IMG/VR virus record: IMGVR_UViG_3300010293_000478
Location: 1 to 53,894 of that record
Strand: one strand, 5' to 3'
Length of the DNA stretch: 53,894 nt
Source of the DNA: a virus
The notes under the pieces were generated by a model that did no database searches, was not told the DNA's origin, and worked only from the letters and a program-made list of their open reading frames with translations. Shown here piece after piece: positions 22,180-51,475 of this stretch. A program made the translations under genes and the position numbers. Each line of letters starts with the position of its first letter. Position 1 is the stretch's first letter.

Positions 22180-22664
22180 TTTATATGGAGTAAATCAATT
22201 AACCGGTGTATGATAGTTTGCAGGTCTTTGTAATCCTTTTGGCGGTTCATCTGACCTTTTGCTTTTATTACCCACTCAACTGTGGTGTAGTGGAATTTCT
22301 CAAACTCGTACACTACCAAACCGGGGTAGTCAGGGTTGGTGTGGGCGCAATAATCAACCGGTCCCAAATTACCAGCAGGATACTTTACCCAAACATCCAC
22401 GGAAACGCCCCTGAACTCAAATGTAAACGGCACTTCTCCGGGAGGTATGTATTTATATTCCTTCTTATTTGCCTCAGCTAAACCGCGTAGTATTGCCAGT
22501 AAACAATCATCAGGGTTTAATAATATGAGGTCAATGTCCTTTATAGTGGATTCATCCACCAGTCCCTGCACAGCCAGTGCCAAAGACCCGGTAACTATAA
22601 AACCGGAATGACGACCATTGAACAATTTCTTTAATTCCTGTAATTCGTGTTTAAACTTTGTCAT
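22176..22664 (-). CDS. nucleotidyltransferase-fold protein
   Basis: 162 residues. 'FIVTGSLALAVQG' (18-30) followed by 'TIKDIDLILLN' (40-50) is the GS...DxD motif of minimal nucleotidyltransferases; a third acidic strand is likely at 'VSVDVWVKY'. This fold includes antitoxin-associated MNT enzymes and kanamycin-type transferases; which reaction applies is unclear. The neighbour downstream overlaps by 4 bases, as a two-gene unit. Located just below the tRNA cluster, so a tRNA- or nucleotide-modifying role is conceivable but only a guess. Confidence 0.65.
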   Translation of the reverse strand: MTKFKHELQELKKLFNGRHSGFIVTGSLALAVQGLVDESTIKDIDLILLNPDDCLLAILRGLAEANKKEYKYIPPGEVPFTFEFRGVSVDVWVKYPAGNLGPVDYCAHTNPDYPGLVVYEFEKFHYTTVEWVIKAKGQMNRQKDYKDLQTIIHRLIDLLHIK

Positions 22665-22767: not shown

Positions 22768-22838
22768 CGGAGGCGGAAGGAATCGAACCTTCATCCCAAT
22801 CACTTAGTGACGATTTTGGCCTACTAAACTACATCTCC
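22768..22838 (-). tRNA. tRNA-like gene, anticodon uncertain
   Basis: 71 bases. T stem GAAGG/CCTTC with TTCGATT loop is perfect; acceptor GGAGATG/CGCCTCC has one mismatch and one G-T pair. The anticodon arm pairs well only as AATCG/TGATT with an 8-base loop TCACTAAG, leaving a weak D arm. No reading gives a normal 7-base loop with five pairs. It may be a diverged tRNA, a frameshifting-type tRNA or a decoy; I do not assign an amino acid. Confidence 0.55.
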
Positions 22839-32408: not shown

Positions 32409-33806
32409 TTAAATTTTATAAAAACTTAAATCTGCCCAACTGGCATCAATCTCACCTAAATCAACCTCCACATCCATAGGCACGATAATCCACCGCCAAT
32501 GCTCAACTAATTCCTGAGTCATGACCTGTTTTATCAATTTAGAAACCCGGACCAATTCCGGAGGGTATATATCAAACACAATAGCATCATGAATCTGACC
32601 AATTATTTTGGATTGTAAATTTTGTAAAGAAAATAAATAATCCAACCGAATCAATGCCCACAATAAACAATGAAATGCCACGCCCTGCACCGGGTAATTA
32701 ATTATGTTGTTTGGTCTTAAAACCCCGGAACATCGGAAACCAGTGAACATATCAAAATAACCCTTTTTCTTATACTCGGCAATCCATTGCTCTTTCCATT
32801 TGGAATAAATAGGAAACCTTTTTGTCCAAAAATCATCCTCAATCACCCGAACATGCTCAATATAGTCATCCAAATTTTTAAAACCATTTGAGAGCATCAA
32901 ATCTCCCAGTGCGAAACCATCCTCAAGTGGTAAACCTTGTCCTTTTCTCCAATTACCATGGTCAGGGAGTTTCCCCCAAACAATGGCTAAATTAATAGCA
33001 CTATTCTTGTAGTAATCACCATAAAATTGAGGGAAAACAAATGAATTTTTTGCTGCTGATCTTAAAGTAGAATGAGCCGGATTGCTTTTAGTAAAATTAG
33101 ATAAACCAAATAATTGAACCGCCATATCACCATGCATGTCCGTAGTAGGATCTTTTATGTAACGTAGCATGGTTGGGTCCTTATGATAACACGCTGCTAT
33201 CCTGACCTCAATACCTTTAAAATCGACTTCCATTAATTGATGACCTACGCGTGGAAATAAAGCCCGGCGTGTTAATAACATAGCCTCTTTATCTCTTTTA
33301 GGTATGTTTTGAAAGTTAGGTGAGTCACTACTGGAACGAAAGGTCTTGACCAAATGTAAATTGTAAAACGGGTGTATAAACCCATCCACCTGCTCACGCA
33401 TAAACGCCCCCAAATAAGTATCACGAACTTTCTTTAATTTCCTTATTTGAAGCAAATCAACTAACTCCGGAATGTCCAATTGAAGTAAGGCATCCTCATC
33501 AGTGCTACCTTTACCACTCTCCGTTAGGGTGGTTGGTTTGATTTTCTTTTTATCATATAGAAATGTAGCAAGCTGGTCGTTACTATTGATATTGACCCGT
33601 CCTCCAAAACTATTATACCAGTGGCGATAAAATGAAGTTTCAAAAAACCGCTTTTCCAGTAAAGCTATTTTCCGGGTCAAATGATCATGCTTACTTTGGC
33701 AATATTCCATGTCGACCCGGATACCCTGACGCTCTGCCCTTGCCAATGCCAAAGCTCCGTCATGAAGTAATCTATAAGCCTCCCGTCGTGTTGGTTTTAT
33801 AAGCAT
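32409..33806 (-). CDS. DNA polymerase, family A (polymerase domain)
   Basis: 465 residues: thumb, palm and fingers only. Motif A 'MEVDFKGIEVRIAA' (Asp plus the Glu-Val-Arg), fingers motif 'RSAAKNSFVFPQFYGDYY' and motif C 'QIHDAIVFDI' are present. Motif C has Ala where cellular enzymes have the second acidic residue (HDE), as in some other phage polymerases. The 3'-5' exonuclease is in the adjacent upstream gene (1 base gap), so the holoenzyme is two-part. Confidence 0.9.
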   Translation of the reverse strand: MLIKPTRREAYRLLHDGALALARAERQGIRVDMEYCQSKHDHLTRKIALLEKRFFETSFYRHWYNSFGGRVNINSNDQLATFLYDKKKIKPTTLTESGKGSTDEDALLQLDIPELVDLLQIRKLKKVRDTYLGAFMREQVDGFIHPFYNLHLVKTFRSSSDSPNFQNIPKRDKEAMLLTRRALFPRVGHQLMEVDFKGIEVRIAACYHKDPTMLRYIKDPTTDMHGDMAVQLFGLSNFTKSNPAHSTLRSAAKNSFVFPQFYGDYYKNSAINLAIVWGKLPDHGNWRKGQGLPLEDGFALGDLMLSNGFKNLDDYIEHVRVIEDDFWTKRFPIYSKWKEQWIAEYKKKGYFDMFTGFRCSGVLRPNNIINYPVQGVAFHCLLWALIRLDYLFSLQNLQSKIIGQIHDAIVFDIYPPELVRVSKLIKQVMTQELVEHWRWIIVPMDVEVDLGEIDASWADLSFYKI

Positions 33807-33807
33807 A

Positions 33808-35013
33808 TCAAAAAGGTAAAAAATCGTAATCTAATTCCTCAATCTGTTGTTCAGCAATCCTGTAGGTATATATAGCGTCCGAGGCACAATACTTCATTAA
33901 TCTTTGTAAACCATCCTCACTTTTAGTCAACTCCATGATATTATTAAATGAATTGGTATCCGGTGCCTGCAAGTAACGGGCAATCTCTGACGAATAATCA
34001 ACAATCCCGAGCCGAACATACGCTTGAAACTTTAATCCGGTAACGCCATCTCTATTGTCAAGTAAATGAGACGCCAGCATAGTGTCAAATGCCCATGACT
34101 CGACCGGCTGGCGCAACACCACATTGGACCAATGGTCCTCATACTTCATGTTTTGTGCAATCTTATATACGCCCGGGTTTGCTAATAAATCCAAAAAAGG
34201 TTTTCTACCTTCTTTAGTTACTGGCATCTTAAATACATAGCAATGAGTAGATGATGTCGCCACAGCCACGCAAACAACACGATGACCAATAGCATGAGGT
34301 TTCAAACCAGTGGTTTCATAATCAAACGCTATTGTAGACCCGGTTGGTATTGTATATAAAGGGGTTAGGTCTTCCAAAACCTGCATCGTAAAGTTTGGTT
34401 GGCGTTTCCATGGTTCTTTTAATTGATCAACCGCCTTCTTTATGTCTTGTTTAAAAAACAATTCATAGTCGGAACCCTTGGATAAAACAAGACCCGGTGC
34501 AAATGTAGGAGCAACGTAACATTTCAAATCCTGATCCGGAATGACAAAACCACGCCACTTATCTATTTTATCCATATCCTTAGAAAAACGTTGACCAATC
34601 AAAGAAATGACCGCAGGCATTCCCAGCAGTATTATCAATTTTGGTTGGTACTCTTTGATGTGAGAAAATACAATACGCCTGCAGCAATTCAATTCATGAG
34701 GTGAGGGTAAACGACCTCCCGGGTAGCAATTAATTGCGTTGATACTAATACAATCGTTATGTAAATCAATGCCCGCTGACTCCAAACTCTCCTCCAGTAA
34801 TTGCCCTGACCGGTCTTGCCAATGTTTTCCACGCGAATCATCGGCCTCGGTTGGCGCCTCCCCTATTAGCATTACATGTTTCTTAAAACCACCGGTTGGT
34901 TTCATTTTAGCGGTATGAACATCTCTATACAAACCACAGGCAAAACAAGTCAGGGACTTACCACCAACCCGGTGCAAAGATTCAGTTTCCTTTTTACTAA
35001 AAAACCCTTGCAT
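33808..35013 (-). CDS. family 4 uracil-DNA glycosylase fused to 3'-5' exonuclease
   Basis: 401 residues from ATG 35013 (MQGFFSKKETES). N-terminal 1-200: 'CFACGLYR', 'VMLIGEAPTEADDSRGKHW' and 'INCYPGGRLPSPHELNCC' fit the iron-sulfur type family 4 UDG, with cysteines to hold a cluster. C-terminal 215-400: 'IAFDYETTGLKPH', 'IAQNMKYED' and 'YCASDAIYTYRI' are the three exonuclease motifs of DEDD proofreading domains. In phage SPO1 a similar UDG domain is on the polymerase chain; here UDG-exo and polymerase are neighbours. It suggests proofreading coupled to uracil removal or binding. Confidence 0.86.
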   Translation of the reverse strand: MQGFFSKKETESLHRVGGKSLTCFACGLYRDVHTAKMKPTGGFKKHVMLIGEAPTEADDSRGKHWQDRSGQLLEESLESAGIDLHNDCISINAINCYPGGRLPSPHELNCCRRIVFSHIKEYQPKLIILLGMPAVISLIGQRFSKDMDKIDKWRGFVIPDQDLKCYVAPTFAPGLVLSKGSDYELFFKQDIKKAVDQLKEPWKRQPNFTMQVLEDLTPLYTIPTGSTIAFDYETTGLKPHAIGHRVVCVAVATSSTHCYVFKMPVTKEGRKPFLDLLANPGVYKIAQNMKYEDHWSNVVLRQPVESWAFDTMLASHLLDNRDGVTGLKFQAYVRLGIVDYSSEIARYLQAPDTNSFNNIMELTKSEDGLQRLMKYCASDAIYTYRIAEQQIEELDYDFLPF

Positions 35014-35015
35014 AC

Positions 35016-36035
35016 TTAGGATGCTCTTAATATCGCAATATAGACCCAATTTTCACCTTCAAATTTAATACGAGAATCCCCTACTACAGCCTCCAACGTT
35101 TCTTTTAGAACCTCGATAAAAAGATAGGGGGTTATGGAGAAAGAAAGGGGGTTGCCGGAAAACTTCATGTTAGCATCCTCCTCAAACCAACCGGTTTCTG
35201 ACTCAGCCCGTATATTAATGCGATTGTTTGCCACGCTCACCACCACGCTCTCATCCAAGAAATGATCCCTTTTACCCATAACAGCCGCCCTCTCAAGTAT
35301 TTCCAATATGGTTTGTGGGAATTTGATTTCCGCTCCTGACACCTCAAGTAAACGGGCTATGTCCGGGAAAGACTCCTGCAAAACCCGGGAACTTATTTGA
35401 GTACCAAATTCGTTCCGGAAATGAATCCAATTATCAGCAACGGAGACCTCTGTAGGGTTGTAACGCATAATAACTGCTAAATTGGTAGCTGGTATTAAAA
35501 CCGGTTCTTCCAATTCCACCGGATCGTCAAAATAGGCAACGCCCAGTCGAAAACCATCAGAGGCGGTACAGCCACTCTGCTCAAATTTAACAGCAGTTAA
35601 TACCGGACGAGACATATCCCTCGACGCGGCACCAATAACCTTTTGTACAATGGCGTTAAAGCTCGTAGGCAAGGTAATCCAATCTTCTGCCTGACCAACC
35701 TCCTCCAACGGAAGTGTAATTTTAGCCTGTAGCGCAAAACCCGCCCGGGAACGACCGGCAGTCAATACAATTTCACTCTCTGTGACTTCCAAATCAACTT
35801 CATCCTTTTTCATTTTACTGAGCATTTTATACATCTGCTCAGCTTTGATTGCGCCCTCAAACGTCAGACCGGTCACCGGGTGACTTATGCTCAAGTCATC
35901 ATTGTAAGTCACCACACAACCATCCTTGAAAATAAAAGAATCTGTCTGCTCGATTATGTCCTTACTACCGAGTGCTGGTTTTACAATTTCCAACGCCTCC
36001 AACAAATCATTTTTTTTGATCACAACTTTTTTCAT
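35016..36035 (-). CDS. DNA sliding clamp, DnaN-like
   Basis: 339 residues, close to the bacterial beta clamp length but without easily seen repeats. 'SRPVLTAVKFEQSGCTASDGFRLGVAYF' (about 140-167) matches 'RPVL.GV....T.DG.RL', the best-conserved clamp stretch. Ends 2 bases before the UDG-exo start. Tethers polymerase to DNA. Confidence 0.85.
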   Translation of the reverse strand: MKKVVIKKNDLLEALEIVKPALGSKDIIEQTDSFIFKDGCVVTYNDDLSISHPVTGLTFEGAIKAEQMYKMLSKMKKDEVDLEVTESEIVLTAGRSRAGFALQAKITLPLEEVGQAEDWITLPTSFNAIVQKVIGAASRDMSRPVLTAVKFEQSGCTASDGFRLGVAYFDDPVELEEPVLIPATNLAVIMRYNPTEVSVADNWIHFRNEFGTQISSRVLQESFPDIARLLEVSGAEIKFPQTILEILERAAVMGKRDHFLDESVVVSVANNRINIRAESETGWFEEDANMKFSGNPLSFSITPYLFIEVLKETLEAVVGDSRIKFEGENWVYIAILRAS

Positions 36036-36210
36036 CTCTTTGCTTTTTACGGGAAACCCTCCCTATTTTAACATACTGAATTAATTCCTCATCTGTAACT
36101 TTTTGCTCCTTTATAAAATGATAACTAACCAAACGAGTATTAGCCCTCTTTTTTGTTAAGGAACGTCCTAATGTTTCATCAACCAACCACGTAGCAAAAT
36201 ACACTTTCAT
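36007..36210 (-). CDS. short protein resembling the N terminus of the adjacent DpdA-like protein
   Basis: 67 residues, [14 protein letters not shown]...RLVSYHFIKEQ...LIQYVKIG. It lines up with the first 50 residues of the DpdA-like protein just upstream (MKVWFAG...RLYSYHYVH...LIQYCM): matching M-K-V-aromatic-F-A, R-L-x-S-Y-H and L-I-Q-Y. It may be a duplicated N-terminal subdomain or a remnant. Overlaps the clamp start by 29 bases. Confidence 0.6.
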   Translation of the reverse strand: MKVYFATWLVDETLGRSLTKKRANTRLVSYHFIKEQKVTDEELIQYVKIGRVSRKKQRDEKSCDQKK

Positions 36211-37247
36211 TCAAAAAACCCTTTCATTACTTTTTTAGTATGAAATGCCCACGGCCACTCCGGCATGTTTTGTTCCAAATCCAGAAAGTAAATTATGTTA
36301 AGCTCATCACGTTGAACATAGTTGTTGGACAATCCGGGCTCCTCAATGATTTCCAATAAACGGGTTTTAATGCTTTTATCTACTGGTTTCTTCTCTGCCC
36401 ATTTTTCCCCCGGCTTTAGTTCATCATAAGTTATTGGACGTTTTTCAAATCGGGACTTACCAAGCACAAAACCCTTCTCATGGATGTAATTCATAAAAAT
36501 AGACTTTTCTACGGGAGTCAAAGTCGTTATGTGCTTACCGGCATCCTTCTGATTAGGACTGCGATTGGAAACCGCTATTTTCCACGAATTTTCATCGTAA
36601 ACCCACTCTCCACCCTTATAACGAGGAATCATAATAGACCCCAACCTCCCCGTAAGCACCCAGCTTGTTGAGTCAACAGAGTACCACGGGTAGCGTAGCA
36701 TCAGTGGTAAACTGGTCATGCCAAATGCATGTACTTTAACTTTTGGCAAACCAGTCGAATCAACTAAATAATTGGACCAAATTCTATCCAGATACAAAAC
36801 CAAGTCGGAGGTTTTTACCAAACCCCCTAAACATATGTAATCATATTTTTCCAACAAAGGAACCAAAAACTCATCAGGGTCACTTCCATGATGGAAAACA
36901 GGCAAAGGTTTCAAACCAGCCGCTTCCATTTTCTTCAAATTACGGGCACTGGCAATAGGATTACCAATGACATCCAGATTAGCATAAACAGTAAGTAAAT
37001 GCTCATGCTCTTTTATGAAGGCTATATAAGCATCAATATCAATGGAAAGACCCTGTGACTTTGCCGAAAACGCACCGGAATCCAAAAACAAATCAATTTT
37101 ATTAGTCATACAATACTGAATTAAAGTGCCCACATTAAAAAAATCAATATGAACATAATGATATGAATATAAACGACCCACACCGTATGAATGCAATACA
37201 TGCTCCCGTGATAAAGTACCAGTATTACCAGCAAACCACACTTTCAT
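36207..37247 (-). CDS. dpdA: DpdA-like DNA 7-deazaguanine transglycosylase
   Basis: 346 residues. TGT-like TIM-barrel pattern: '[14 protein letters not shown]' (about 52-65), '[10 protein letters not shown]', '[12 protein letters not shown]', 'YICLGGLVK' and '[25 protein letters not shown]'. It is the phage DpdA type, which exchanges guanine in DNA for a 7-deazaguanine base made by FolE-QueD-QueE-QueC, all encoded just upstream. Overlaps FolE by 4 bases. A phage with this set normally carries modified DNA that resists many restriction enzymes; the exact base is not deducible by eye. Confidence 0.84.
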
Positions 37248-37825
37248 CGCAACAAACTCATTAATTCCTGCCGAGCCTGCGACTCCGTCATAAACACCCC
37301 TCTCATACTGCTGGTGCTCATAACTGAGTTTTGTTTACCCACCCCACGCATCCGCATGCACATATGGGTAGCCTCAATTATACAGGCAGCCCCCTTTGGT
37401 TTTAGGTACTCCATAAGGGAATCAGTCACCTGATCTCCAATCCGCTCCTGAATTTGTAAACGCCGGGCAAATATATCAACCAACCGGGCAAGTTTGGAAA
37501 TACCTATAACCTTTCCGTCAGGTATATACGCTACATGAGCCTTGCCAAAGAATGGTAACATATGGTGCTCGCACATGGAATACAATTCAATATCCTTCAA
37601 TAGTACAATCTGGTCATACCCACCGGAATCAAACACAGTCAAAACATCCTCCGGTTTCTGCGAATAACCCCGGTAAAGTTCAGACCATGACTTAACCACC
37701 CTTTTAGGAGTATCCAATAAACCCTCCCGGTTAGGATCCTCCCCGATAGCAACCAGTATAACCTCAATATTGGTTTTTAACAATTTAAAATCGTCAACAA
37801 ATAACAATGAACTATCTTCTTTCAT
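37244..37825 (-). CDS. folE: GTP cyclohydrolase I
   Basis: 193 residues from ATG 37825, which overlaps the QueC stop (ATGA). '[39 protein letters not shown]' (Cys and His zinc ligands), '[20 protein letters not shown]' and '[10 protein letters not shown]' are hallmark motifs. Converts GTP to dihydroneopterin triphosphate, the first step of preQ0 synthesis. Confidence 0.95.
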
Positions 37826-38487
37826 ACTCCTAACTCCTTTCGTAGTAAACAATTATCACACCTACCACAAGGTGGTGTGAAGTAACAACTGTACGTTTTG
37901 TTGTAATCCACACCCATTTCCCGCCCACAAACAATCACATCTGTTTTATCCCAGCGCAATTCGTAAAACGGAGCCCTGACCCGGACTTGATGAGAATATC
38001 CGAGTTGACTAATTAAGTTAATAATGTCAACAAATTGGGGTGAATTATCACCCGTAAGCAATTTATAAGACCGACGGTTCATCCATTCCGCCTCACCATA
38101 TAAATAACCAAGCAACAACTCATCTATTTTATTGGCAGAACAGTAAGCAAGGGCGTATGTTAACATAATTGAATTGCGCCCCTCTACAAAGAAATCAGCA
38201 TACCGCAATTTATCCCAATCAGCCAACGGATTTACCTCATTTGGTACATAGTTTGATTGGAATAATCCCGGACGAGCCTGCCAGTCATGTATTGGTATTT
38301 TTATCACCACAAGTGGGGGTAGGCTTAACTTAGTTATATGATGATTTAACAATTCGATCTGCTTTTCAAAAACAAGCTGACCATAATCAACCGTAATTAC
38401 GGTTGGTGATAAACCCTTGTATTTGTAAAGCAAAGTGGTGGAGTCTAATCCACCTGTTGCCATTATGGCTGTTTTAGGTTTATGCAT
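37822..38487 (-). CDS. queC: 7-cyano-7-deazaguanine synthase
   Basis: 221 residues. P-loop '[14 protein letters not shown]' near the N terminus, '[18 protein letters not shown]', and the C-terminal zinc site '[17 protein letters not shown]' (four Cys). Makes preQ0 from 7-carboxy-7-deazaguanine with ATP and ammonia. It overlaps the second QueC-like gene by 25 bases. Confidence 0.9.
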
Positions 38488-39155
38488 TTTTGTATGTCAT
38501 TAATTTCAAAACCTCGATTTTTAGTAACACTTTCTTCAAGAAAAGCAAGCAGATGATCTACAGGGTTATTAAGCCAATGACCAGACGTATCAATGCCATT
38601 AAGCTCCAAAGCCACATATTTACGTAAACAAGACCGACAAATACCACAAGGCTTATGCAACCCCTCATAACAACTAAACGAGTTAGTCAGTAGATAAGAC
38701 GCAGGGTGGTCTTTCTCAAGGTATAAAGCAACTAATTCTGTCTTAGTTAAATGCTTGAAAGGCAGATCAATAACAAAAGGACCTTGAATCAATACTTTTT
38801 GAGTATCGGTAGAAAAGTAATTCAAAACACCCTCTACCTGACTTTTAAACACATAGTCCTTATCTTTAGTCGTATCACCTAATGTAAAACCAAATATGAT
38901 ATGATTAGCGTAATTGGCGGCAACTAATGCCAAAAAATGATTACGAAAAGGTATTATGTTATTTTTCAACGAAAAAGCAGCTAAAGGCATACCCACCTTA
39001 ATAACTCCGGGAAAGTAATTATCTATTACTGACTGCTCCATTCGATTTTCAGCAGTGCCCATGTCTACGAATAAACACCTCTCATTCGGAATTTGTAGAA
39101 TAGATTTAATTAAGTAAGAATCCAAACCCCCACTAAACATCAATAAGTTGGCCAT
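38463..39155 (-). CDS. second QueC-like protein
   Basis: 230 residues. 'FSGGLDSYLIKSIL' (PP-loop) and C-terminal 'CYEGLHKPCGICRSCLRK' (four-Cys zinc site) retain the QueC layout, but the middle differs strongly from the adjacent QueC (IIPFRNHFLALVAANYANH in place of the usual stretch). Two QueC-type enzymes in series suggest that one does a further or alternative ATP-dependent step on the deazaguanine side chain. Which product forms cannot be told. Confidence 0.78.
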   Translation of the reverse strand: MANLLMFSGGLDSYLIKSILQIPNERCLFVDMGTAENRMEQSVIDNYFPGVIKVGMPLAAFSLKNNIIPFRNHFLALVAANYANHIIFGFTLGDTTKDKDYVFKSQVEGVLNYFSTDTQKVLIQGPFVIDLPFKHLTKTELVALYLEKDHPASYLLTNSFSCYEGLHKPCGICRSCLRKYVALELNGIDTSGHWLNNPVDHLLAFLEESVTKNRGFEINDIQKCINLKQP

Positions 39156-39388
39156 CTCACTCCTCCTACATTTTTATCATCTATATAAGCATCAGCTCTC
39201 AATTTATCCATAACAAGTGCATGATATTTTATGCCCAGCTCAAATAACTCACTTTCAGTCTGCTTGCGAGTAGCAGATGATCTTGCAGTATAGATAACTA
39301 TAAAATTATTAGGATCCTCGTACAATTGACTAACTATATTTGGATTAATATTAGCAGTTCCATCAAAATCAATTGCTATAACACGCAT
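39140..39388 (-). CDS. small HAD-type phosphatase
   Basis: 82 residues. 'AIDFDGTANINP' carries the DxDGT nucleophile motif; 'VIYTARSSATRKQTE' is motif II (T/S) and 'DKLRADAYIDDKNVGG' supplies motif III Lys and motif IV Asp pair. Compact, without cap. Overlaps the second QueC gene and so probably acts in deazaguanine or precursor metabolism, perhaps removing a phosphate. Confidence 0.75.
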   Translation of the reverse strand: MRVIAIDFDGTANINPNIVSQLYEDPNNFIVIYTARSSATRKQTESELFELGIKYHALVMDKLRADAYIDDKNVGGVRWPTY

Positions 39389-39430
39389 CTATCACTTTTA
39401 TAAGATTAATAACTTTATTTTAAAAAAATG

Positions 39431-39463
39431 CCGGGATGCTCCCAAAAATAGGCGCAATCCCGG
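39431..39463 (-). terminator. intrinsic terminator after the acidic protein gene
   Basis: CCGGGAT/ATCCCGG, 7 bp, with loop, followed on the minus strand by CATTTTTTT. Located between 39482 and the HAD gene start, so the downstream deazaguanine genes must be read through or promoted elsewhere. Confidence 0.7.
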
Positions 39464-39481
39464 AATAATCTCATAAACATA

Positions 39482-40210
39482 TTACTTCAACTTCGGGTCG
39501 TTTTCACCCATAGGTCCATAATGTTTCTCGTACAGTTTGAAACGGTTTATAGACCAACTCTCTGATTTGTCAAAGGTCTTCATCAAAGCAGCCACTAAAT
39601 CAACTGATTTCATCTTCTTTTTGATGCAATCGCGAATGAAAGCTGTTTGATTAGGTTGGTCATCTTTCTTCTTTTCAGCCGGGAGTTTAGTCTCCGTTTT
39701 TGGTTTCTCACTCCCCTTAACAGGTTCCGGGGCAACAACCACTCCCAAACATTCAAACATCTTCGTGGTCAAAACTGACACCTCAAAAATGGTCTTGACC
39801 TTGTTTTTGATTGCTTTGAACGAAACATCCTCAGCAACCATGGCTTTCAGTGCCTTAATAGCCTTGTCCGGTTTCTGCCCGGCTGCTGCCTCAATTTTGG
39901 CAATCAATTCGGCTTTAGGATCCTCGTCAGCCTCATCCTCGTCGGCATCCTCGTCAGCCTCATCCTCGTCAGCCTCATCCTCGTCGGTATCCTCGTCAGC
40001 CGCAAAAGGCCACAATTCCAACTCTTCCATGAACTGCCTGACATTATCAGCAATCTCCGGAATGTCGGACTCTTCCAACAAGTCGACCGCTTCCTTAACT
40101 TTCGCTTTCAGAGCATCCTCTTTTACACCAACTACTTTGAGTTTCGGGTCCAGTCCCAATACTTCGTTCAGGCTTTTAGCCACAATTTGCAATTTTTCCA
40201 AAGTTTTCAT
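39482..40210 (-). CDS. acidic-repeat protein, unknown
   Basis: 242 residues. Middle part is an Asp/Glu/Ala repeat (DEDEADEDEADEDADEDEAD, about 77-97) flanked by helical Lys/Glu-rich regions; the N-terminal 70 residues look globular and helical, and the C-terminal 60 (TAFIRDCIKKKMKSVDLVAALMKTFDKSESWSI region) may be a small helical or winged domain. Like the SSB and portal tails it is very acidic, possibly a DNA mimic or interaction platform. Own promoter and terminator flank it, so it is transcribed as a single gene. Confidence 0.7.
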   Translation of the reverse strand: MKTLEKLQIVAKSLNEVLGLDPKLKVVGVKEDALKAKVKEAVDLLEESDIPEIADNVRQFMEELELWPFAADEDTDEDEADEDEADEDADEDEADEDPKAELIAKIEAAAGQKPDKAIKALKAMVAEDVSFKAIKNKVKTIFEVSVLTTKMFECLGVVVAPEPVKGSEKPKTETKLPAEKKKDDQPNQTAFIRDCIKKKMKSVDLVAALMKTFDKSESWSINRFKLYEKHYGPMGENDPKLK

Positions 40211-40259
40211 TTTTTGTGATTTTTAATGATTAATTAGATATTGAAATCTTTTGTTGTCA

Positions 40260-40269
40260 TATTATACAA
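40260..40269 (-). promoter_or_regulatory. promoter motif TTGTATAATA
   Basis: TATAAT box 51 bases before the ATG at 40210, with TTTAGC 17 bases further up. A 5-prime leader of about 40 bases is expected. Confidence 0.55.
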
Positions 40270-40317
40270 CAACTAATCCTTTTGCTAAAAAATTTGTAGA
40301 AAATTTTACTACCTTTT

Positions 40318-41076
40318 TCACACACCCGTCAGCTTGTCCCACAAAACCACGTGCTCCCGAGTACTATACCGAACATTGTACTTCAATGCCATCTGCACCA
40401 CTGCCGGGCGGTTTATCTCTAATTCAGCCAACGAACCGCCGAGGGGCATTAAAACAATCTGCTGCTTCTTAACCAAACCGGGTTTAAGGAAATCCACCTC
40501 AATTTCTTCCCACTCCGATTCATCGGACACCACAAACTTGAACCAGCTATTCGGCAATAAACTGAGACCTTTGATTATCGCCGGTCTGTATTGGCGGTGG
40601 CGTGGGTTACCGGCATTGCTCAGTTTAGGGCTATTATTCCAACAATCCACCATTTTAGAAAACAACCGGTTTGGGAGTAGGGTACATTCGTTTTCGACCT
40701 CTATATAAGGTTTGAAGGCATACCGCTCCATAAACGCCTGTAAAAAGACTAACAAAGCATTCTGCTGGTTTAAGGGACTACCTCCAGTAAACACTAAACG
40801 TTGACCATCATGCAAACGCTCCGGCAAACCAACCGAATCCATTAATGAAAGCAATTCAGTAATGGTGTACGGGTTGCCATACTTCCAAACCTGCTGCGTA
40901 TCGCACCACCGGCAATTTAGGGTACATTCCTGTAAACGTAAGAATGCTGCAGGAAATCCCACAAAGTTTTCACCCTGAATGGTGTCACAGAAAAATTCAG
41001 ACACCCGCAAAAAAACACCATCCGGGTCAGGAACCCGGACTTTTGGGTGACTCTTAATGATAGTCGTTGGAAACAT
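40318..41076 (-). CDS. queE: 7-carboxy-7-deazaguanine synthase, radical SAM
   Basis: 252 residues from ATG 41076. 'CTLNCRWCDT' is the CX3CX2C cluster motif; 'TIQGENFVGFPAAFLRLQEC' is the usual QueE lead-in, 'LVFTGGSPLNQQNAL' the GGxP-type SAM strand. Converts 6-carboxytetrahydropterin to 7-carboxy-7-deazaguanine. Overlaps QueD by 23 bases. A longer frame upstream is only the shadow of queD. Confidence 0.9.
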   Translation of the reverse strand: MFPTTIIKSHPKVRVPDPDGVFLRVSEFFCDTIQGENFVGFPAAFLRLQECTLNCRWCDTQQVWKYGNPYTITELLSLMDSVGLPERLHDGQRLVFTGGSPLNQQNALLVFLQAFMERYAFKPYIEVENECTLLPNRLFSKMVDCWNNSPKLSNAGNPRHRQYRPAIIKGLSLLPNSWFKFVVSDESEWEEIEVDFLKPGLVKKQQIVLMPLGGSLAELEINRPAVVQMALKYNVRYSTREHVVLWDKLTGV

Positions 41077-41428
41077 ACTCACAACTTGTTTTAGGGGTTT
41101 CCGACATTTCAATTGAATAAAGGTCCGGGAAGAATGGTTTGAACAATGAGTATATTCTTTCACTCATAAGCTCAACCGTAGGATTTATGTCCGGGAAAAC
41201 CTCATTAAGGTGCCTGTGATCTAAAACATCATCAACAAACGCCTTAATTGGTTTCAATTCATTGTAATCCCTGACAAAACCAACATCATCCAGTTGAAAG
41301 CCTTGCAGGGTCACCTTCAATACATAATTATGCCCATGCAGGCGACCACACGGGTGTCCATCTGCCAAACCAGTCAGTACGTGACTGGCGCTGAAATGGA
41401 ACTCTTTACTAATTCTCCAACGTTTCAT
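41054..41428 (-). CDS. queD: 6-carboxytetrahydropterin synthase
   Basis: 124 residues. 'KEFHFSASHVLTG' and 'GRLHGHNYVLKVTL' supply the three zinc histidines; 'PCGRLHGH' includes the catalytic Cys; 'LDHRHLNEVFPDINPTVELMSE' is the typical central helix region. Second step of preQ0 synthesis. It has its own promoter box and a leader of about 100 bases with a multibranched, terminator-like fold. Confidence 0.93.
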   Translation of the reverse strand: MKRWRISKEFHFSASHVLTGLADGHPCGRLHGHNYVLKVTLQGFQLDDVGFVRDYNELKPIKAFVDDVLDHRHLNEVFPDINPTVELMSERIYSLFKPFFPDLYSIEMSETPKTSCEYVSNDYH

Positions 41429-45616: not shown

Positions 45617-46099
45617 TTATACAGAGAAATCAGTCTTTGCCAAAATTGCTGGCATGTTTTGCATAGTTGTCCAAATACTCTTCCACTGCCAGCCCCGGTT
45701 TCTTAATTCCCGGGTCAGGGCACCCCTTGCCATTTTAGGAGCAATGCTTTCCAATTCTTCAAAATTTTCCAGGATGATACGTACCAATTCCTGACACTCA
45801 GCAGGCCATGACTTGACCTCGTCCTGAAAGGTTTGGATTTTATCCTCGTAATTTTCCACTGACATTGCTGCATCTTTCAAGCTGGTGCTCTTGTGCTTCA
45901 TTTCTTGCTTGCAGTAGTTAGTCAAGTGGTTTTGCATACAACGATAAATAAAAGTGGTTGATTTCACCCCTTTTGAGGGGTCAAACCGACTCATGGCCTC
46001 AGTGTAAGCCAGCCCGGCCTCACTAATTAGCATTTCTACATCAATTCCGGTGGTTTTGTTGAATGACCACGCTACCTGATAAATAAGATTGAGTTCCAT
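45617..46099 (-). CDS. sigma factor-like protein (region 2 plus C-terminal HTH)
   Basis: 160 residues. 'DVEMLISEAGLAYTEAMSRFDPSKGVKSTTFIYRCMQNHLTNYCK' (20-64) is sigma70 region 2-like: the 'FD...G..F.T....ri...l' pattern for -10 binding and core contact. C-terminal 'GALTRELRNRGWQWKSIWTTMQNM' could be region 4-like HTH but is short. It may redirect host RNA polymerase to phage promoters. A hammerhead ribozyme stands 24 bases before the start, so its mRNA would be cut to a short leader. Confidence 0.68.
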   Translation of the reverse strand: MELNLIYQVAWSFNKTTGIDVEMLISEAGLAYTEAMSRFDPSKGVKSTTFIYRCMQNHLTNYCKQEMKHKSTSLKDAAMSVENYEDKIQTFQDEVKSWPAECQELVRIILENFEELESIAPKMARGALTRELRNRGWQWKSIWTTMQNMPAILAKTDFSV

Positions 46100-46117: not shown

Positions 46118-46174
46118 AACACTGACCCGGTTTCCCGGGTTTCGTCTTAATTTTCAAAGACTCATCAGAGTGTT
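46118..46174 (-). ncRNA. type I hammerhead ribozyme, copy A
   Basis: 57 nt on the minus strand: stem I AACACT/AGTGTT, core CTGATGA, stem II GTCTT/AAGAC with loop TGAAAATT, GAAA, stem III CCCGG/CCGGG with GAAA loop, then TC. All conserved core bases are present (C3 to A9, G12-A14, A15.1-U16.1 pair, C17). Predicted cleavage lies between 46124 and 46123, leaving a 24-base leader before the sigma-like gene. Starts right after the stop of the SNF2 helicase gene. Confidence 0.93.
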
Positions 46175-48223
46175 TTATTTATAGGAATCTAAAAGATCAG
46201 CGAGCAGTGATTGGTTCTGTTTGTCGTGCCCATCCAAAACCTGTCCTAAAACTACGCGTTTTTTATCTAACAATTCCGCTATTTTCTGCTCAATAGTACC
46301 CTCTGCCAATAGATAGTGGATTGTTACTGCGTTCTTCTGACCTATACGGTGGCAGCGATCTTCTGCCTGAACCAAGTCACCGGGGGTCCATGGTAATTCT
46401 AATATCGCCACGTTGCTGGCTGCGGTCAGGGTTATACCAACCCCGGCGGCTTTTATATTACCCACAAACAATTTAATATTTGGGTCTTTTTGGAACTTAT
46501 CCACAGCCGCCTGTCGGTCGCTAACCGGGGTCGAACCATCTATTTTAACAGCGGTTGGAAATTGTTTCATTAGTGCCTCAATTACAAATTTATGAGTGGC
46601 AAATATGACCAATTTTTCGTCAGTTTCTAAAAAATCCTCAATCCAACTAATAGCCTGTTTTAACTTACCGGCTACTGCTAATTGTTTTAGACCTTCGATT
46701 TCAGCAAGGGTTTGGGCATTGCTGGCTTTTTCTGCAGCAGAATTACCTTTAGTGCTTCTCACATATTGAATAAAGTCCGCTGAGGCCTTTTCATATTCTC
46801 GACGATTATCCAACTCTACCGGAATGTAATTCCAAACTTTGTCAGGGAGTTCAGTGAGCACGTCCTTCTTTAAACGGCGTATCATTATGGAGTCAGTCAA
46901 TTTTTTATGTAGTTCCTGAGTATTAGAACTTCCGTTAAAATTCCAACCATACCCGTTGTTAATTGGGTTGCAATAACGTTGAGCAAACTGCCAGAATGAA
47001 TTGAACAAGGTGGGGTTGATAATACTGATGGCATTAAACATCTCCACCGGTCTGTTTACAATCGGGGTCCCTGACAAGGCTATAAAATGAGGGATGTTTT
47101 TTGCTAACTTCTTAATAGCCTTAGTCCGGTCAGCATTGTTGTTTTTATAATAATGACACTCGTCTGTTATCACCACTTTAGGCATGACCCTTTTTAAAGA
47201 ATCAACCCATGAGGCAAGCGTATCGTAATTAATAATAACAATGTCCTCAATGATTGGTTGAGGAGTACGTCCGGAAAGGATTTGAACTTTAGTGCCCGGC
47301 ATCCACTTACCCACCTCATTTTTCCACGCTGATTTTACGCTGGCTGGTGTTATAATTACTACCGGTCTTAAAGTGGGGTTAGCGGCTAACCAAGTTAAGG
47401 CCTGAGCAGTTTTACCCAATCCCATCTCATCAGCAAGTAATGCCCTACCTTGTTGTTTCTGAATGAACTCAACCCCTTTTATTTGATAGGGTTTCAAAGA
47501 AAGTCCGTTATTGATAGAAAGTTCCTTAATTTCCGGGACTTCTGTAGGTAGTGGTTTTGGTAAGGCTTGTTCTACGTCAGGACGCAGAGTAAAACCAAAC
47601 CCTTTCAAGGCATCCACGTTTTCCTGAGTTAACGGGGCTGTCCAATATTTTACCTCACCCTCAGCATGAAAACGCCGACCTGATAAGGTTTTGACCTGCT
47701 CAACCACTTTATAATCAAAAGGGAATGTGATTTTCACACCATACTCCCCGGTGGCTTTATAAGTAGCTAAAGTCACATATTTTTCCGGTAATTTTTCAAC
47801 GAAAACCGGTTGAACAGGCGCTATCTGTTTAGCGGGATTCATTGGGTGATTGTCAGGTACGAACAATTCGCCTTCGGTGGGGGTGTTACTTTTTACAACT
47901 GATTTTGGAACCCATTGGTCAATCTTTACGTCAGTGATTTTGACTTTCAGACTTTCCAACAAGGCCTCCGAATAACCACCAATCTTATCCCAATCCCAAT
48001 AGTGGGAACCACATTCAGGACCAATACCGAGCACCACGCTTACTGGGTGGGTCAATTGCCTGCCACAAATACAACATATGTTCATTTTCTGACTCTCCAA
48101 AGTACCATGACCATAAAGATACAAGGCTTTGTGGGTCTCCTTCAAAATAATGGCTTTCACTACTACGGGTATTTTATTTTCCCGGGCAAAAACCTTTCGC
48201 AAAACAAATACTTTTGCTTCCAT
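46175..48223 (-). CDS. SNF2-family helicase with zinc finger and HARP-like domain (SMARCAL1-like)
   Basis: 682 residues. N-terminal zinc finger (CCICGRQLTH... GPECG, Cys 50-71), a HARP-like region (about 148-215, 'VKITFPFDYKVVEQVKTLSGRRFHAE'), then the SNF2 motor: 'LADEMGLGKT' (265-272), 'VVITDECHYYK', 'ALSGTPIVNRP', 'IFATHKFVIEAL' and 'EDRCHRIGQKN'. SMARCAL1-type enzymes anneal or remodel stalled forks. It lies between two hammerhead copies, so its mRNA may be cut on both sides. Confidence 0.88.
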   Translation of the reverse strand: MEAKVFVLRKVFARENKIPVVVKAIILKETHKALYLYGHGTLESQKMNICCICGRQLTHPVSVVLGIGPECGSHYWDWDKIGGYSEALLESLKVKITDVKIDQWVPKSVVKSNTPTEGELFVPDNHPMNPAKQIAPVQPVFVEKLPEKYVTLATYKATGEYGVKITFPFDYKVVEQVKTLSGRRFHAEGEVKYWTAPLTQENVDALKGFGFTLRPDVEQALPKPLPTEVPEIKELSINNGLSLKPYQIKGVEFIQKQQGRALLADEMGLGKTAQALTWLAANPTLRPVVIITPASVKSAWKNEVGKWMPGTKVQILSGRTPQPIIEDIVIINYDTLASWVDSLKRVMPKVVITDECHYYKNNNADRTKAIKKLAKNIPHFIALSGTPIVNRPVEMFNAISIINPTLFNSFWQFAQRYCNPINNGYGWNFNGSSNTQELHKKLTDSIMIRRLKKDVLTELPDKVWNYIPVELDNRREYEKASADFIQYVRSTKGNSAAEKASNAQTLAEIEGLKQLAVAGKLKQAISWIEDFLETDEKLVIFATHKFVIEALMKQFPTAVKIDGSTPVSDRQAAVDKFQKDPNIKLFVGNIKAAGVGITLTAASNVAILELPWTPGDLVQAEDRCHRIGQKNAVTIHYLLAEGTIEQKIAELLDKKRVVLGQVLDGHDKQNQSLLADLLDSYK

Positions 48224-48265
48224 TGTTTCAAATTTTATGAGGTAGTTAATTTATACCTCTGGTTT

Positions 48266-48322
48266 AACACTGACCCGGTTTCCCGGGTTTCGTCTTAATT
48301 TTCAAAGACTCATCAGAGTGTT
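48266..48322 (-). ncRNA. type I hammerhead ribozyme, copy B
   Basis: 57 nt, identical to copy A (stem I AACACT/AGTGTT, core CTGATGA..GAAA, stems II and III as in A). Predicted cleavage between 48272 and 48271, 48 bases before the SNF2 gene start. Begins one base after the stop of the 48324 gene. Confidence 0.93.
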
Positions 48323-48323
48323 T

Positions 48324-48560
48324 TTAAGTTCTTAAATTTAGGAGGACCACCTGCTCCTTATTTGACCACATTCTTACTTTACTCAGCAACTCGTCACAAG
48401 TTTCGGGAAACTGTTTTATTATGTCACTTGCTGATAAATAGGGGTGGCTTATAAAGTGGCATTGCACCTCATCACGAGATCCATTTTTGGTTTTTCTCCG
48501 AGTGGTTATCAAGGCTATGGAATAGCCCTCTGTAGTTTTGATAAACGTTTTTATTTTCAT
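48324..48560 (-). CDS. unknown small protein
   Basis: 78 residues; 'ALITTRRKTKNGSRDEVQCHFISHPYLSASDIIKQF' looks like a small mixed alpha-beta domain. No family recognised. The leader CAAATACCATG is the same as that of the sigma-like gene. Ends at the hammerhead copy B. Confidence 0.55.
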   Translation of the reverse strand: MKIKTFIKTTEGYSIALITTRRKTKNGSRDEVQCHFISHPYLSASDIIKQFPETCDELLSKVRMWSNKEQVVLLNLRT

Positions 48561-48663
48561 GGTATTTGCCCGTGTAGCCGATAGCGCAGCTTGTTGGTTA
48601 ATTATTTGTAATCATTCATATGCCATTCGGTCAGGTGTATTTCAATTCTCACCTTAGTTTCTG

Positions 48664-48924
48664 CTACCATGATTCGCCAATGTATTTAAGTTCATAATGT
48701 TTAATCAAAAAATCAATGTTCTCTCTTTTCCACTTGTCCATTGACTTGCGACTATAAGGGTGTCCATCACCCTCATACCTGATTAGTGTGGCTTCGACTG
48801 TTTTAGGCATCACCTTTCTAACAGTTATTTGAATTGATTGTGGTGGCAATGGATTTTCCATTTCGTAGGTATAGTCATTGTAGTAGATGCCTACTTTCAA
48901 ATCTATTGCTATTACTGTTTCCAT
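48664..48924 (-). CDS. unknown small protein
   Basis: 86 residues. 'DLKVGIYYNDYTYEMENPLPPQSIQITV' is strand-rich; 'MDKWKRENIDFLIKHYELKYIGESW' is helical. No family recognised. The 100 bases after it (to 48560) hold no good gene; a 22-codon frame overlapping its end is too short to support. Confidence 0.55.
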   Translation of the reverse strand: METVIAIDLKVGIYYNDYTYEMENPLPPQSIQITVRKVMPKTVEATLIRYEGDGHPYSRKSMDKWKRENIDFLIKHYELKYIGESW

Positions 48925-48948
48925 TTTGGTTGTTTTTAAGTGTGTTAA

Positions 48949-49110
48949 TTAATTTTTAATGATTGCTTTGATTTTGAGGTGCTTTAAAACCTCTTGTAAT
49001 TCAGCATTGGTGTACTTTTCAGCCACTTCCTTGCTGACGTTATTATGACAGACAGCTATATGAACCGCCCTTGCCTTCGTGATTGATGTTCTCCGTGGTT
49101 TCATGGTCAT
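48949..49110 (-). CDS. unknown small basic protein
   Basis: 53 residues from ATG 49110, which overlaps the stop of the upstream gene as TAATG. 'SKEVAEKYTNAELQEVLKHLKIKAI' is helical and could form a small DNA- or protein-binding domain. No family recognised. Confidence 0.5.
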   Translation of the reverse strand: MTMKPRRTSITKARAVHIAVCHNNVSKEVAEKYTNAELQEVLKHLKIKAIIKN

Positions 49111-49601
49111 TAAATTTGCGATCTGACACCATTCCAATACATTTGGACATCATTTACATCACATAGAACTCGATCAGTTGCCCAACTTTCAAACGGGGCG
49201 GTTTCCCAATCCTCCGGGATTTCCTCCTCAAAAACTAACCGACCCCTGCTCGCTATTTTGAGCATGACCAATTCCTTTTCTTTCTCAGTTAATTCATAAT
49301 CCTCAAGTATAGAGGAGTCCGAAGCCCAACCACCTCCTGATAAAATTTTACCAACAAATTCTTCAACTCTTTCAAGATTAAAAGAACAAGCATCACCTGC
49401 CTCAACCACTGGAGCTGTGTATAGGGTGGTGTCAGATTCCTCCTCATAAAAGGATTTTAACAATACCTCTTTAGGAGTGTCAGGATCAGTACCTGATGTA
49501 ATAACAATTAAGTTAGATAAGGAGCTGTTGTGTGCCCGGGCAATTTCAGCTTCTGCCAAAATCTGCTCAAGTCTTTCAATAGAAATCTCAATACGATTCA
49601 T
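49110..49601 (-). CDS. unknown acidic protein
   Basis: 163 residues, strongly acidic with helical start 'ISIERLEQILAEAEIARAHN' and later 'VEEFVGKILSGGGW', 'EEIPEDWETAPFESW'. No recognised motif. Its 27-base leader after the predicted hammerhead cut is nearly identical to those of the genes at 49987 and 50321. Confidence 0.6.
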   Translation of the reverse strand: MNRIEISIERLEQILAEAEIARAHNSSLSNLIVITSGTDPDTPKEVLLKSFYEEESDTTLYTAPVVEAGDACSFNLERVEEFVGKILSGGGWASDSSILEDYELTEKEKELVMLKIASRGRLVFEEEIPEDWETAPFESWATDRVLCDVNDVQMYWNGVRSQI

Positions 49602-49622
49602 GACTTTTAATTTTTAGGATTT

Positions 49623-49679
49623 AACACTGACCCGGTTTCCCGGGTTTCGTCTTAATTTTCAAAGACTCATCAGAGTGTC
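49623..49679 (-). ncRNA. type I hammerhead ribozyme, copy C
   Basis: 57 nt, as copy A except that the first stem I base is G (GACACT/AGTGTT, a G-U pair). Predicted cleavage between 49629 and 49628, 27 bases before the 49601 start. The upstream gene's stop codon is the TGA inside CTGATGA. Confidence 0.93.
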
Positions 49680-49987
49680 TGATTATACGTGTGAGTATAT
49701 AAACCTTCCACGTACATAGTTATGCTCTTTCTTTTGTTTCTTACAGCCCATTGTAGGTGTTGGAGGGCTTTGTAAACTCTACCGGCGTATTCTGCCTTTT
49801 TTGTTTCTGGATTAACCCAAACAATATCCCCTCCATTCATTTGATGAATCCTATTCAAACCCAATGTATATCCTTCATTGAGTTTTTTAAGCACCTTCTG
49901 TTGTGGTTGAGTTAGTTTTTTATCGGCCTTTAATTCATTGGCGATTGAAATAAATTCGTTTAGGCTAATTCGGTCCTCTTTTTTCAT
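49670..49987 (-). CDS. unknown basic protein
   Basis: 105 residues. 'LTQPQQKVLKKLNEGYTLGLNRIHQMNGGDIVWVN' (39-73) suggests a small winged-helix-like or strand-helix domain. Its stop codon lies inside the catalytic core of hammerhead C, so cleavage removes little of the coding mRNA. No family recognised. Confidence 0.6.
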   Translation of the reverse strand: MKKEDRISLNEFISIANELKADKKLTQPQQKVLKKLNEGYTLGLNRIHQMNGGDIVWVNPETKKAEYAGRVYKALQHLQWAVRNKRKSITMYVEGLYTHTYNQTL

Positions 49988-50008
49988 GACTTTTAATTTT
50001 TAAGATTT

Positions 50009-50063
50009 AACACTGACCAGCCGGTCAGGCTGGTTTCGCCTCATAAAGGCTCATCAGAGTGTT
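50009..50063 (-). ncRNA. type I hammerhead ribozyme, copy D (diverged stems)
   Basis: 55 nt. Core identical (CTGATGA, GAAA, TC) and stem I AACACT/AGTGTT kept, but stem II is GCCT/AGGC with loop TTATG and stem III is CCAGCC/GGCTGG with a 5-base loop. The stems changed together while staying paired. Predicted cleavage between 50015 and 50014, 27 bases before the 49987 start. Confidence 0.93.
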
Positions 50064-50078
50064 TTTAAAAAACGCAGA

Positions 50079-50321
50079 TTAATATTGTACGAAAATCAAA
50101 CGTTCCAGATATGGTGAACCGTTCGGTTTGAGCTGCTTGACCCACATATGGTTTGAGCCAAAACCCCAGATAAAATATTCTGCGCGCGCACATCCAAACT
50201 CACGTCTTAACTCTGTTTCATTGTTTGCCGATTGAATACTGTTCAATATGTACGCAAACTCAATCAACAACATTTGTTTTTCAGGGATGATTCTCAAATT
50301 ACTTTCAATTGTACATTTCAT
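50079..50321 (-). CDS. unknown small protein
   Basis: 80 residues; 'RIIPEKQMLLIEFAYILNSIQSANNETELRREFGCARAEYFIWGFGSNHMW' is helical then aromatic-rich. First gene after the structured RNA; its leader has the same 27 bases as the two genes after it but no ribozyme. No family recognised. Confidence 0.55.
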   Translation of the reverse strand: MKCTIESNLRIIPEKQMLLIEFAYILNSIQSANNETELRREFGCARAEYFIWGFGSNHMWVKQLKPNGSPYLERLIFVQY

Positions 50322-50348
50322 GACTTTTAATTTTTAGGATTTAACACT
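50322..50348 (-). other. ribozyme-less copy of the post-cleavage leader
   Basis: AGTGTTAAATCCTAAAAATT and following bases up to the ATG at 50321 equal the 3-prime cleavage product leader of hammerhead C. Upstream of AGTGTT there is only TTTTTTAAAA, no core. Either the ribozyme was lost here or the leader is the older unit. Confidence 0.6.
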
Positions 50349-50360
50349 TTTTAAAAAACA

Positions 50361-50666
50361 TCGTACTGTTCCGGGACTCGAACCCGGATGTCTGCCTGTA
50401 CAGTTTTGAGCTTAACTCAAAAATTCCGCATTCGTTCAAGACGACCGCGCAACGCCTCCCTTCTCCTGTATTTAGTCTATTCTCCCCTGACGGGTGTCAT
50501 TAACTTCAAAGGTCCCGGCATATTGCCCTTATTGGAATCCCGCTCAGTAACGTGGATATGAAGGAAACCAATCCCCCCACCCCAGTGTTTTCAGGCAACT
50601 GGGATCCTGCTGAGCCACCACCGATTTCGGACGAACCTACCCTTGCGCTCTACAACCTTAGTACGA
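50361..50666 (-). ncRNA. structured RNA with tRNA-like T arm and closing stem, class unknown
   Basis: The 5-prime TCGTACT at 50666 pairs exactly with AGTACGA at 50361-50367; next GTT and AAC extend it after a three-base bulge. Directly inside the 3-prime side lies a T arm (CCGGG-TTCGAGT-CCCGG). Between the ends many small hairpins are possible (CCCAGT/ACTGGG, GGCA/TGCC, TGAC/GTCA, TCGT/ACGA, TTTTGAG/CTCAAAA). Size and end architecture recall tmRNA, but I see no tag frame ending in Ala-Ala, nor the G-U alanine signal. The 3-prime end is followed by TGTTTTTT. The remaining part of 50667-50899 holds a terminator-like hairpin and A+T-rich, probably promoter, sequence. Confidence 0.55.
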
Positions 50667-50850
50667 CTTTCTCCACAATCTCTCAGGGTTTCAAAAACCC
50701 CCTTTTTATACTAACCCTGTGGCTCTCAAGGGATTACCTACTTTTCAGTGCTTTCAAAGAACGACTTCCATGCCATAAAGATACGGCAATAAATAAAGGA
50801 TCCTAATATTTTTTGTAAAAATTTCCTAATTTATAATGATTATAAATAAT

Positions 50851-50871
50851 ACTACTTGAGAACCAAGTAGT
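50851..50871 (-). terminator. 8-bp hairpin after the lysis genes
   Basis: ACTACTTG/CAAGTAGT with a 5-base loop, followed on the minus strand by ATTATTTATAAT. About 30 bases below the stop of the spanin-like gene; likely terminator of the lysis transcript. Confidence 0.5.
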
Positions 50872-50899
50872 TAGCTGAAAAAGGGAATGAAAAATATTT

Positions 50900-51475
50900 T
50901 TAGTATGTCCACACTTGGTACCCTACCTGAAAAAGGTGAGTTTCTCCGGTACCATAACCATACCTAAATGACCATTTCCTATACTTAATTGAGGTCTGTA
51001 GTCCGGAGCTGGTAAAACTTGCAGAATTGATATGAAAGAACCCAATATCCTGACTAATCACTTTATCCTTTGTCGGGTAAATGTAATTAGTTGTAATGAC
51101 TGTAGTAGGCTTCCTAATGGCAAAGGATGGAATAATGCTATCATACCTGTTACGGCTCAAGTAAAGGTCTATACTGGCGTATAATAAAGAATCGTCACGT
51201 AACACCAATCCTTTATATGTGACTGTAGCAAGGTAATCCCTAATAATTGCAGCAGAATCAACTTCCCGGGTTATTGTGTCATAAATAACCTGTATTGAAT
51301 CTTTTGTACTTGCAATTACCGGGGGTGCCGGTTTTGGTATGGAATCTCCCGGAATAATAATAGTGATAGGTTCTGTTATAGGTTCCGGGCAGGGTTTTCT
51401 TCTGCATTGCTCAGTGGCAATGATGAATGTCAAAACCGCTATTATTATCAAACAAATGTTTAGCAAGGTTTTCAT
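50900..51475 (-). CDS. membrane-anchored spanin-like protein
   Basis: 191 residues. N-terminal hydrophobic helix (5-20, LNICLIIIAVLTFIIA) followed by Cys23, then a Pro-rich stretch and a long strand-rich periplasmic part (ISIDL, TTVITTNYIYPT). In the lysis module, directly after the endolysin, such a protein is often the inner-membrane spanin or an equivalent that disrupts the outer membrane. The role is inferred from place and topology. Phages of Gram-negative hosts need it, which fits the host inference. Confidence 0.55.
   Translation of the reverse strand: MKTLLNICLIIIAVLTFIIATEQCRRKPCPEPITEPITIIIPGDSIPKPAPPVIASTKDSIQVIYDTITREVDSAAIIRDYLATVTYKGLVLRDDSLLYASIDLYLSRNRYDSIIPSFAIRKPTTVITTNYIYPTKDKVISQDIGFFHINSASFTSSGLQTSIKYRKWSFRYGYGTGETHLFQVGYQVWTY

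Follow-up and report, generated by a model that had tools for sequence, protein, structure and literature searches.

Four type I hammerhead ribozymes between genes of a phage: predicted cleavage punctuation and its counterparts in other phages

Clusters of hammerhead ribozymes that flank single genes or short blocks of genes in phage and prophage DNA are described in the main text of Perreault et al. 2011 (PMC3088659), where processing of long phage transcripts by the ribozymes was proposed and where three arrays were cleaved in vitro and one in Escherichia coli. By the same account, the haloviruses HF1 and HF2 carry a variant (HHphage) before a helicase gene, with a mapped 5′ end within 3 nucleotides (nt) of the cut. 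A further self-cleaving RNA of gut phages, the hepatitis delta virus-like theta ribozyme, lies beside tRNA genes (PMC10879173). A 2017 review repeated the association between hammerheads and phages, and called the role of the bacterial and phage hammerheads an open question (PMC6155905). Here we describe an array of four type I hammerheads in a viral DNA of 53,894 nt (IMG/VR record IMGVR_UViG_3300010293_000478, positions 1 to 53,894; the whole of this stretch is termed the window). With a probability of about 0.8, the best explanation is that these are cis-acting ribozymes serving as cleavage punctuation between the cistrons of a phage transcript. This is supported by a complete core, covarying stems, the sense orientation, and a stop-to-leader placement found both here and in many unrelated phages.

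The cutting of a polycistronic phage mRNA by such an array is not a new idea, since Perreault et al. had already described and proposed it; a preliminary description of this DNA, which called the arrangement a distinctive RNA-processing scheme, thus claimed too much novelty. What the present sequences appear to add is a 29-nt module found over 162 contexts, a stop-to-start geometry and a probable gain at the helicase–sigma junction. The abutment of stop codons and the module are absent from the main text of PMC3088659, whose Dataset S1 may hold the same module. Like the clusters described there, this phage has several hammerheads flanking single genes; unlike those clusters, which are mainly from prophages, it has no integrase recognised among its scanned proteins. 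As in HF1 and HF2, a ribozyme is found shortly before a phage helicase gene, but the halovirus ribozyme, as reported in that paper, is a core variant of archaeal viruses located 13 nt before the start codon, with no consensus type I array. The theta ribozymes are of another class, and only four of the hammerhead modules surveyed below follow a tRNA.

All four copies lie on the same strand as the coding sequences around them, the minus strand. Copy 1 (46118–46174) occupies the junction of the SNF2-like helicase gene and the sigma-like gene, with the predicted cut between 46124 and 46123. Copy 2 (48266–48322, cut between 48272 and 48271) is upstream of the helicase gene, copy 3 (49623–49679, cut between 49629 and 49628) is between genes encoding 105 and 163 amino acids (aa), and copy 4 (50009–50063, cut between 50015 and 50014) is between the 80-aa and 105-aa genes. 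Each comprises CUGAUGA, stem II, GAAA, the A15.1–U16.1 pair, GUC and an open stem I of 6 bp, formed by AACACU or GACACU with AGUGUU. In the sense of the transcript copies 1–3 read AACACU/CUGAUGA/GUCUUUGAAAAUUAAGAC/GAAA/CCCGGGAAACCGGGUC/AGUGUU, with copy 3 starting GACACU. Copies 1 and 2 are identical, and the three differ at a single base over 57 nt. Copy 4 reads AACACU/CUGAUGA/GCCUUUAUGAGGC/GAAA/CCAGCCUGACCGGCUGGUC/AGUGUU; its stems II and III have other sequences with the pairing retained. The hammerhead core (CUGANGA, GAAA, A15.1–U16.1 and H17) is thereby present in four out of four copies, and stems II and III are closed by loops with both RNA ends in stem I, as required for type I. From the predicted cut to the ATG is 24, 48, 27 and 27 nt for copies 1 to 4 respectively. 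As in clustered phage hammerheads, there are at least two copies, in the same orientation, and the flanking genes belong to one inferred transcription unit.

A strict type I descriptor matches four times in the window, exactly at these copies, compared with a mean of 0.01 in windows randomised by a first-order Markov model; a looser hammerhead descriptor gave no match across ~0.8 Mb of control sequence. A covariance model (R3) trained on 13 hammerheads of other phages, from which the window copies were excluded, finds precisely the same four (50.8–55.6 bits, E values from 7e-15 to 2e-13), the next-best match in the window scoring 14.4 bits (E 0.055). The weak match of models R1 and R3 at 22479–22519 (E 0.055–0.065) was rejected, as it lies inside an open reading frame and has no GAAA. 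The preliminary description had located four complete type I hammerheads on the coding strand with these cut sites and leaders of 24 to 48 nt, and in all this it was correct; the independent model, the covariation and the presence of the element in other phages all uphold the type I identity.

In the 13 sequences from outside the window, standard pairing is found in 92% of the pair cells, and 9 of 15 pairs are changed on both sides. Sliding the pair partners by 1–3 columns reduces the pairing of these sequences to 31–39%. Of 500 shuffles, none equalled these sequences on four out of five covariation measures; the fifth, the number of pair types, was matched by 107 of the 500 and is hence unexceptional. 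The picture is unchanged when the window copies join the alignment. Compensatory changes are present for all three helices, and three of the sequences (L009, L011 and L014) differ in the register of stem II.

The search with Rfam hammerhead covariance models that the preliminary description had proposed as a check did not recover the array. None of the hammerhead families of Rfam 15 (RF00163, RF00008, RF03152 and others) matches the window copies at its gathering score, relaxed thresholds gave no usable assignment, and the same absence of a match at the gathering score holds for 28 further loci with the same element. The RAGATH-1-hammerhead family RF03152 resembles the window copies in its type I-like order, its open stem I and, in its consensus, an A-rich run immediately 5′ to stem I; the copies differ in scoring 24–26 bits where the family's gathering score is 56. 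Since Rfam 15 misses this form at gathering scores, routine annotation that relies on them will leave these ribozymes out.

The placement of the copies with respect to the genes is close. The UAA stop of the helicase gene (682 aa, SNF2 family, 46175–48223, minus strand), which lies between copies 1 and 2, directly touches stem I of copy 1, and downstream of that copy is the gene for a sigma-70 region 2 protein (160 aa, 45617–46099, minus). A small gene lacking a family match (78 aa, 48324–48560, minus) has its stop codon next to copy 2. Two genes, also of no family match, flank copy 3: that of 163 aa (49110–49601, minus) downstream, and that of 105 aa (49670–49987, minus) between copies 3 and 4. 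The latter gene terminates at a UGA that is part of the catalytic CUGAUGA in copy 3. The earlier statement that all copies lie in the gaps between genes is therefore inexact for 49623–49679. Upstream of copy 4 is a gene of 80 aa (50079–50321, minus), again with no family match, which has a leader without a ribozyme.

The element recurs well outside the window. A pattern specific for its stem I matched 13 viral stretches, with arrays of four (G003), three (G013), two (G007) and two (G014); a scan of a bacterial genome collection with a CACT/AGTG stem I pattern gave no match. A set of matches from the first pattern scan (L005, L006, L008, L010, L012, L013 and L016–L018) was excluded, being one recurrent element whose stems give no support to a type I fold at its GTC site. 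A similarity search of phage records gave type I-like copies in the crAss-like phages cr272_1, cr131_1 and cr273_1, a copy in cr53_1 that folds as type III, and further examples in Agathobaculum phages and human faecal phages. The 29-nt core and stem-loop II module CTGANGAGTCTTKGAARATTAAGACGAAA is common to three of the four window copies and other phages, and a scan with it found 115 viral stretches and 49 in bacterial genomes, mostly of Clostridia. These give 162 distinct contexts in phages and bacteria, 141 of type I, 12 of type III and 9 assignable to neither. Related sequences are among them, so that the counts are of sequences and not of independent events. This hammerhead form is widespread in phages, gut crAss-like phages included, as judged from these matches. 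Four copies in one record lie at the upper end of the range, with two records having four and most having one to three; in a search of 41 whole records nine had two or three ribozymes, and most of these phages have one.

Hammerheads of type III, with stem III open, are found with the same module in L147, L150, L179, L181, L186, L242 and others, including the crAss-like cr53_1. By its sequence the module crosses hammerhead permutations. Two features bear on a possible tertiary contact between stem-loop II and the stem I side: the loop II sequence, which is fixed by the search pattern, recurs in type I and type III forms, and the base at C3-7 is nearly constant (below). Loop II of copy 4 is different. 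At four loci (L177, L224, L246 and L257) a tRNA-Arg (ACG) gene ends 7–10 nt before C3 of the module core; three of these modules fold as type I and the type of L177 is not assignable. It is as if the ribozyme there trimmed the RNA behind a phage tRNA. In Parablautia muri (L283) a Pistol ribozyme (6368–6436, above the Rfam gathering score) is followed ~300 nt downstream by a hammerhead module (6733–6761), so that two classes of self-cleaving RNA are neighbours there.

Placement was analysed for the 140 best type I contexts carrying the module, with random positions and the opposite strand as controls. Measured from stem I, the end of the nearest upstream stop codon has a median distance of 0 nt (interquartile range −3 to +1), whereas random positions give a median of −34. 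In 75% of the contexts an ATG opening at least 40 codons is present 15–75 nt from the cut, compared with 25% of random positions and 11% on the opposite strand; the median distance from cut to ATG is 38 nt, and 66 of 113 leaders have a Shine–Dalgarno-like motif between the two. The stop codon touches stem I in 82 of the 140, nearly always as UAA, and is at or near the core in 13. That the window copies are placed to cut between consecutive co-directional genes, as the preliminary description held, is thus well supported by the sequence and paralleled in these 140 contexts. Position C3-7 carries A in 97% of contexts, and in 45 out of 45 of those where no stop abuts; it is therefore probably for the sake of the RNA itself that the A-rich flank is kept, with stop codons making use of it. 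The same anatomy, proceeding from a stop at stem I to the cut, an initiation signal and a start, is seen in ~140 contexts from crAss-like, Clostridia-associated and environmental phages, and makes the open question of the purpose of these hammerheads directly testable.

If the array acts as punctuation, each ribozyme would fold during or soon after transcription and cut after GUC. The upstream mRNA would then end in a 2′,3′-cyclic phosphate behind the folded ribozyme, whose stems II and III would serve as a 3′ cap; the mRNA downstream of the cut would begin with a 5′-hydroxyl AGUGUU leader of 24–48 nt that retains the translation-initiation signal. A 5′-hydroxyl end is a poor substrate for 5′-monophosphate-stimulated decay, so that the most likely benefit would be separate stability and translation for each cistron. 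A ribosome terminating at a stop codon that touches the ribozyme or lies within it could open the ribozyme fold for a moment, and untranslated or newly made RNA may therefore be cleaved preferentially. In a stronger version, which we regard as doubtful, the upstream stop (a UAA touching stem I or the UGA of the core) and the ribozyme would form one unit, with ribosome termination gating self-cleavage in a widespread phage punctuation system. Translation of one gene would then decide whether the next becomes an independent 5′-hydroxyl mRNA.

Cleavage would also generate segments between the ribozymes (386, 1357 and 2148 nt) with 5′-hydroxyl and 2′,3′-cyclic phosphate ends and matching stem I strands; as all four window copies share their stem I sequences, the ends would be interchangeable among them. 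Ligation of such segments into circular or rearranged mRNAs is nevertheless very unlikely. The arrays L036, L037, L057 and L170 mix different stem I sequences, and the scanned proteins include none recognised as an RNA ligase. Spliced or circular products were sought by Perreault et al. and none was detected, according to the main text (PMC3088659). Stems I and III vary freely across the module contexts; the constancy of the module is imposed by the search pattern.

Several observations count against a role as cleavage punctuation. A common transcript for the array genes, read from gene order only, is plausible and no more: promoter-like sites are not in excess (16 sigma-70-like sites in the array region compared with 16.2 expected), and terminator-like sites are somewhat more numerous than expected (13 compared with 6.6), although those on the minus strand are found within genes or upstream of the array. 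The hammerhead is the minimum-energy fold for copy 1. The minimum-energy folds of copies 48266 and 49623 differ from it by 2.7–3.6 kcal/mol, and in copy 4 it lies 1.3 kcal/mol above the minimum, in a program that leaves out the tertiary contacts of the hammerhead; thermodynamic folding is by itself ambiguous on this point. The gene at 50079–50321 shares the leader AGUGUUAAAUCC...AUG with the ribozyme-bearing genes, yet has no ribozyme. Lastly, the order of helicase and sigma genes is kept in three relatives (L019, L024 and L021), with stop–start gaps of 4, 10 and 13 nt respectively and no ribozyme.

In this phage the helicase–sigma gap is 75 nt, of which 57 are ribozyme. Since relatives with the same order have none there, copy 1 was probably gained in this lineage, and the ribozyme is not essential to the helicase–sigma operon, these relatives managing without it. 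An ancestral ribozyme at the junction was rejected on the same three relatives. The preliminary description was right that copy 1 lies before the sigma-like gene; the position is not conserved. The empty junctions, together with the near-identical copies within one genome and a patchy distribution (no recognisable copy in any of the 10 helicase relatives, and one carrier among 44 records of terminase relatives, many of all these records being fragments), are what would be expected of mobile or selfish self-cleaving cassettes copying between gene junctions, which would persist because a cut there harms little and would bring the phage no regulatory benefit. Hammerheads are moreover known in retrotransposons and retrozymes elsewhere (PMC7761336). 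Yet the fit to stop and start is exact and in one orientation, the stems covary over deep divergence, and no mobility gene is seen adjoining the copies; we consider such cassettes unlikely.

The leader without a hammerhead, AGTGTTAAATCCTAAAAATTAAAAGTCATG (50319–50348, minus), leads into the gene at 50079–50321 and is the same as the leader after copy 3. The sequence there, TTTTTTAAAA|AGTGTT, corresponds to the flanks of copy 4 minus the ribozyme. The leader repeat extends beyond the ribozyme for three genes, which, with the location of the copies upstream of genes and a sigma-like gene close by, would suit cassettes that act as promoters or leaders, such as ones serving the sigma factor encoded by the phage, and whose resemblance to a hammerhead is incidental. 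We find this highly improbable given that the hammerhead core is kept, that the stems covary, that the count of sigma-70-like sites is as expected and that no Bacteroidota-type TTTG-TAnnTTTG site is present on the minus strand of the array. Just before the same leader, on its 5′ side, ~550 nt are noncoding on the coding strand (50350–50900, minus) and end in a T-arm-like hairpin, CCGGGTTCGAGTCCCGG, at about 50371–50387. Examined as a tRNA, an intron-split tRNA and a transfer-messenger RNA, this stretch gave none of these, and its fold energy is not better than that of shuffles (z 0.13). As a speculation, tRNA-like 3′ end processing might replace the ribozyme before this gene.

All large genes of the phage are on the minus strand. 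They include tail, head, terminase, DNA polymerase, clamp loader, recombinase, queuosine-type, replicative helicase, primase, sigma-70 region 2 and SNF2-like helicase genes. A Bacteroidota host is likely, though not proven, because the leaders are A-rich and the closest named terminases are those of phages of Croceibacter and Cellulophaga, plus a sewage phage (37–39% identity). A second tRNA-like gene lies beside the tRNA-Met gene (22768–22838, minus; 39 bits with Rfam, missed by ARAGORN). The DNA polymerase is split over two adjacent open reading frames (32409–35049, minus) that match successive parts of one family, phrog_17. The queuosine-type genes (36207–41163, minus) comprise one that is tRNA-ribosyltransferase-like, two successive QueC-like genes, a GTP cyclohydrolase I gene and a QueE-like gene, a set that suggests 7-deazaguanine modification of the phage DNA.

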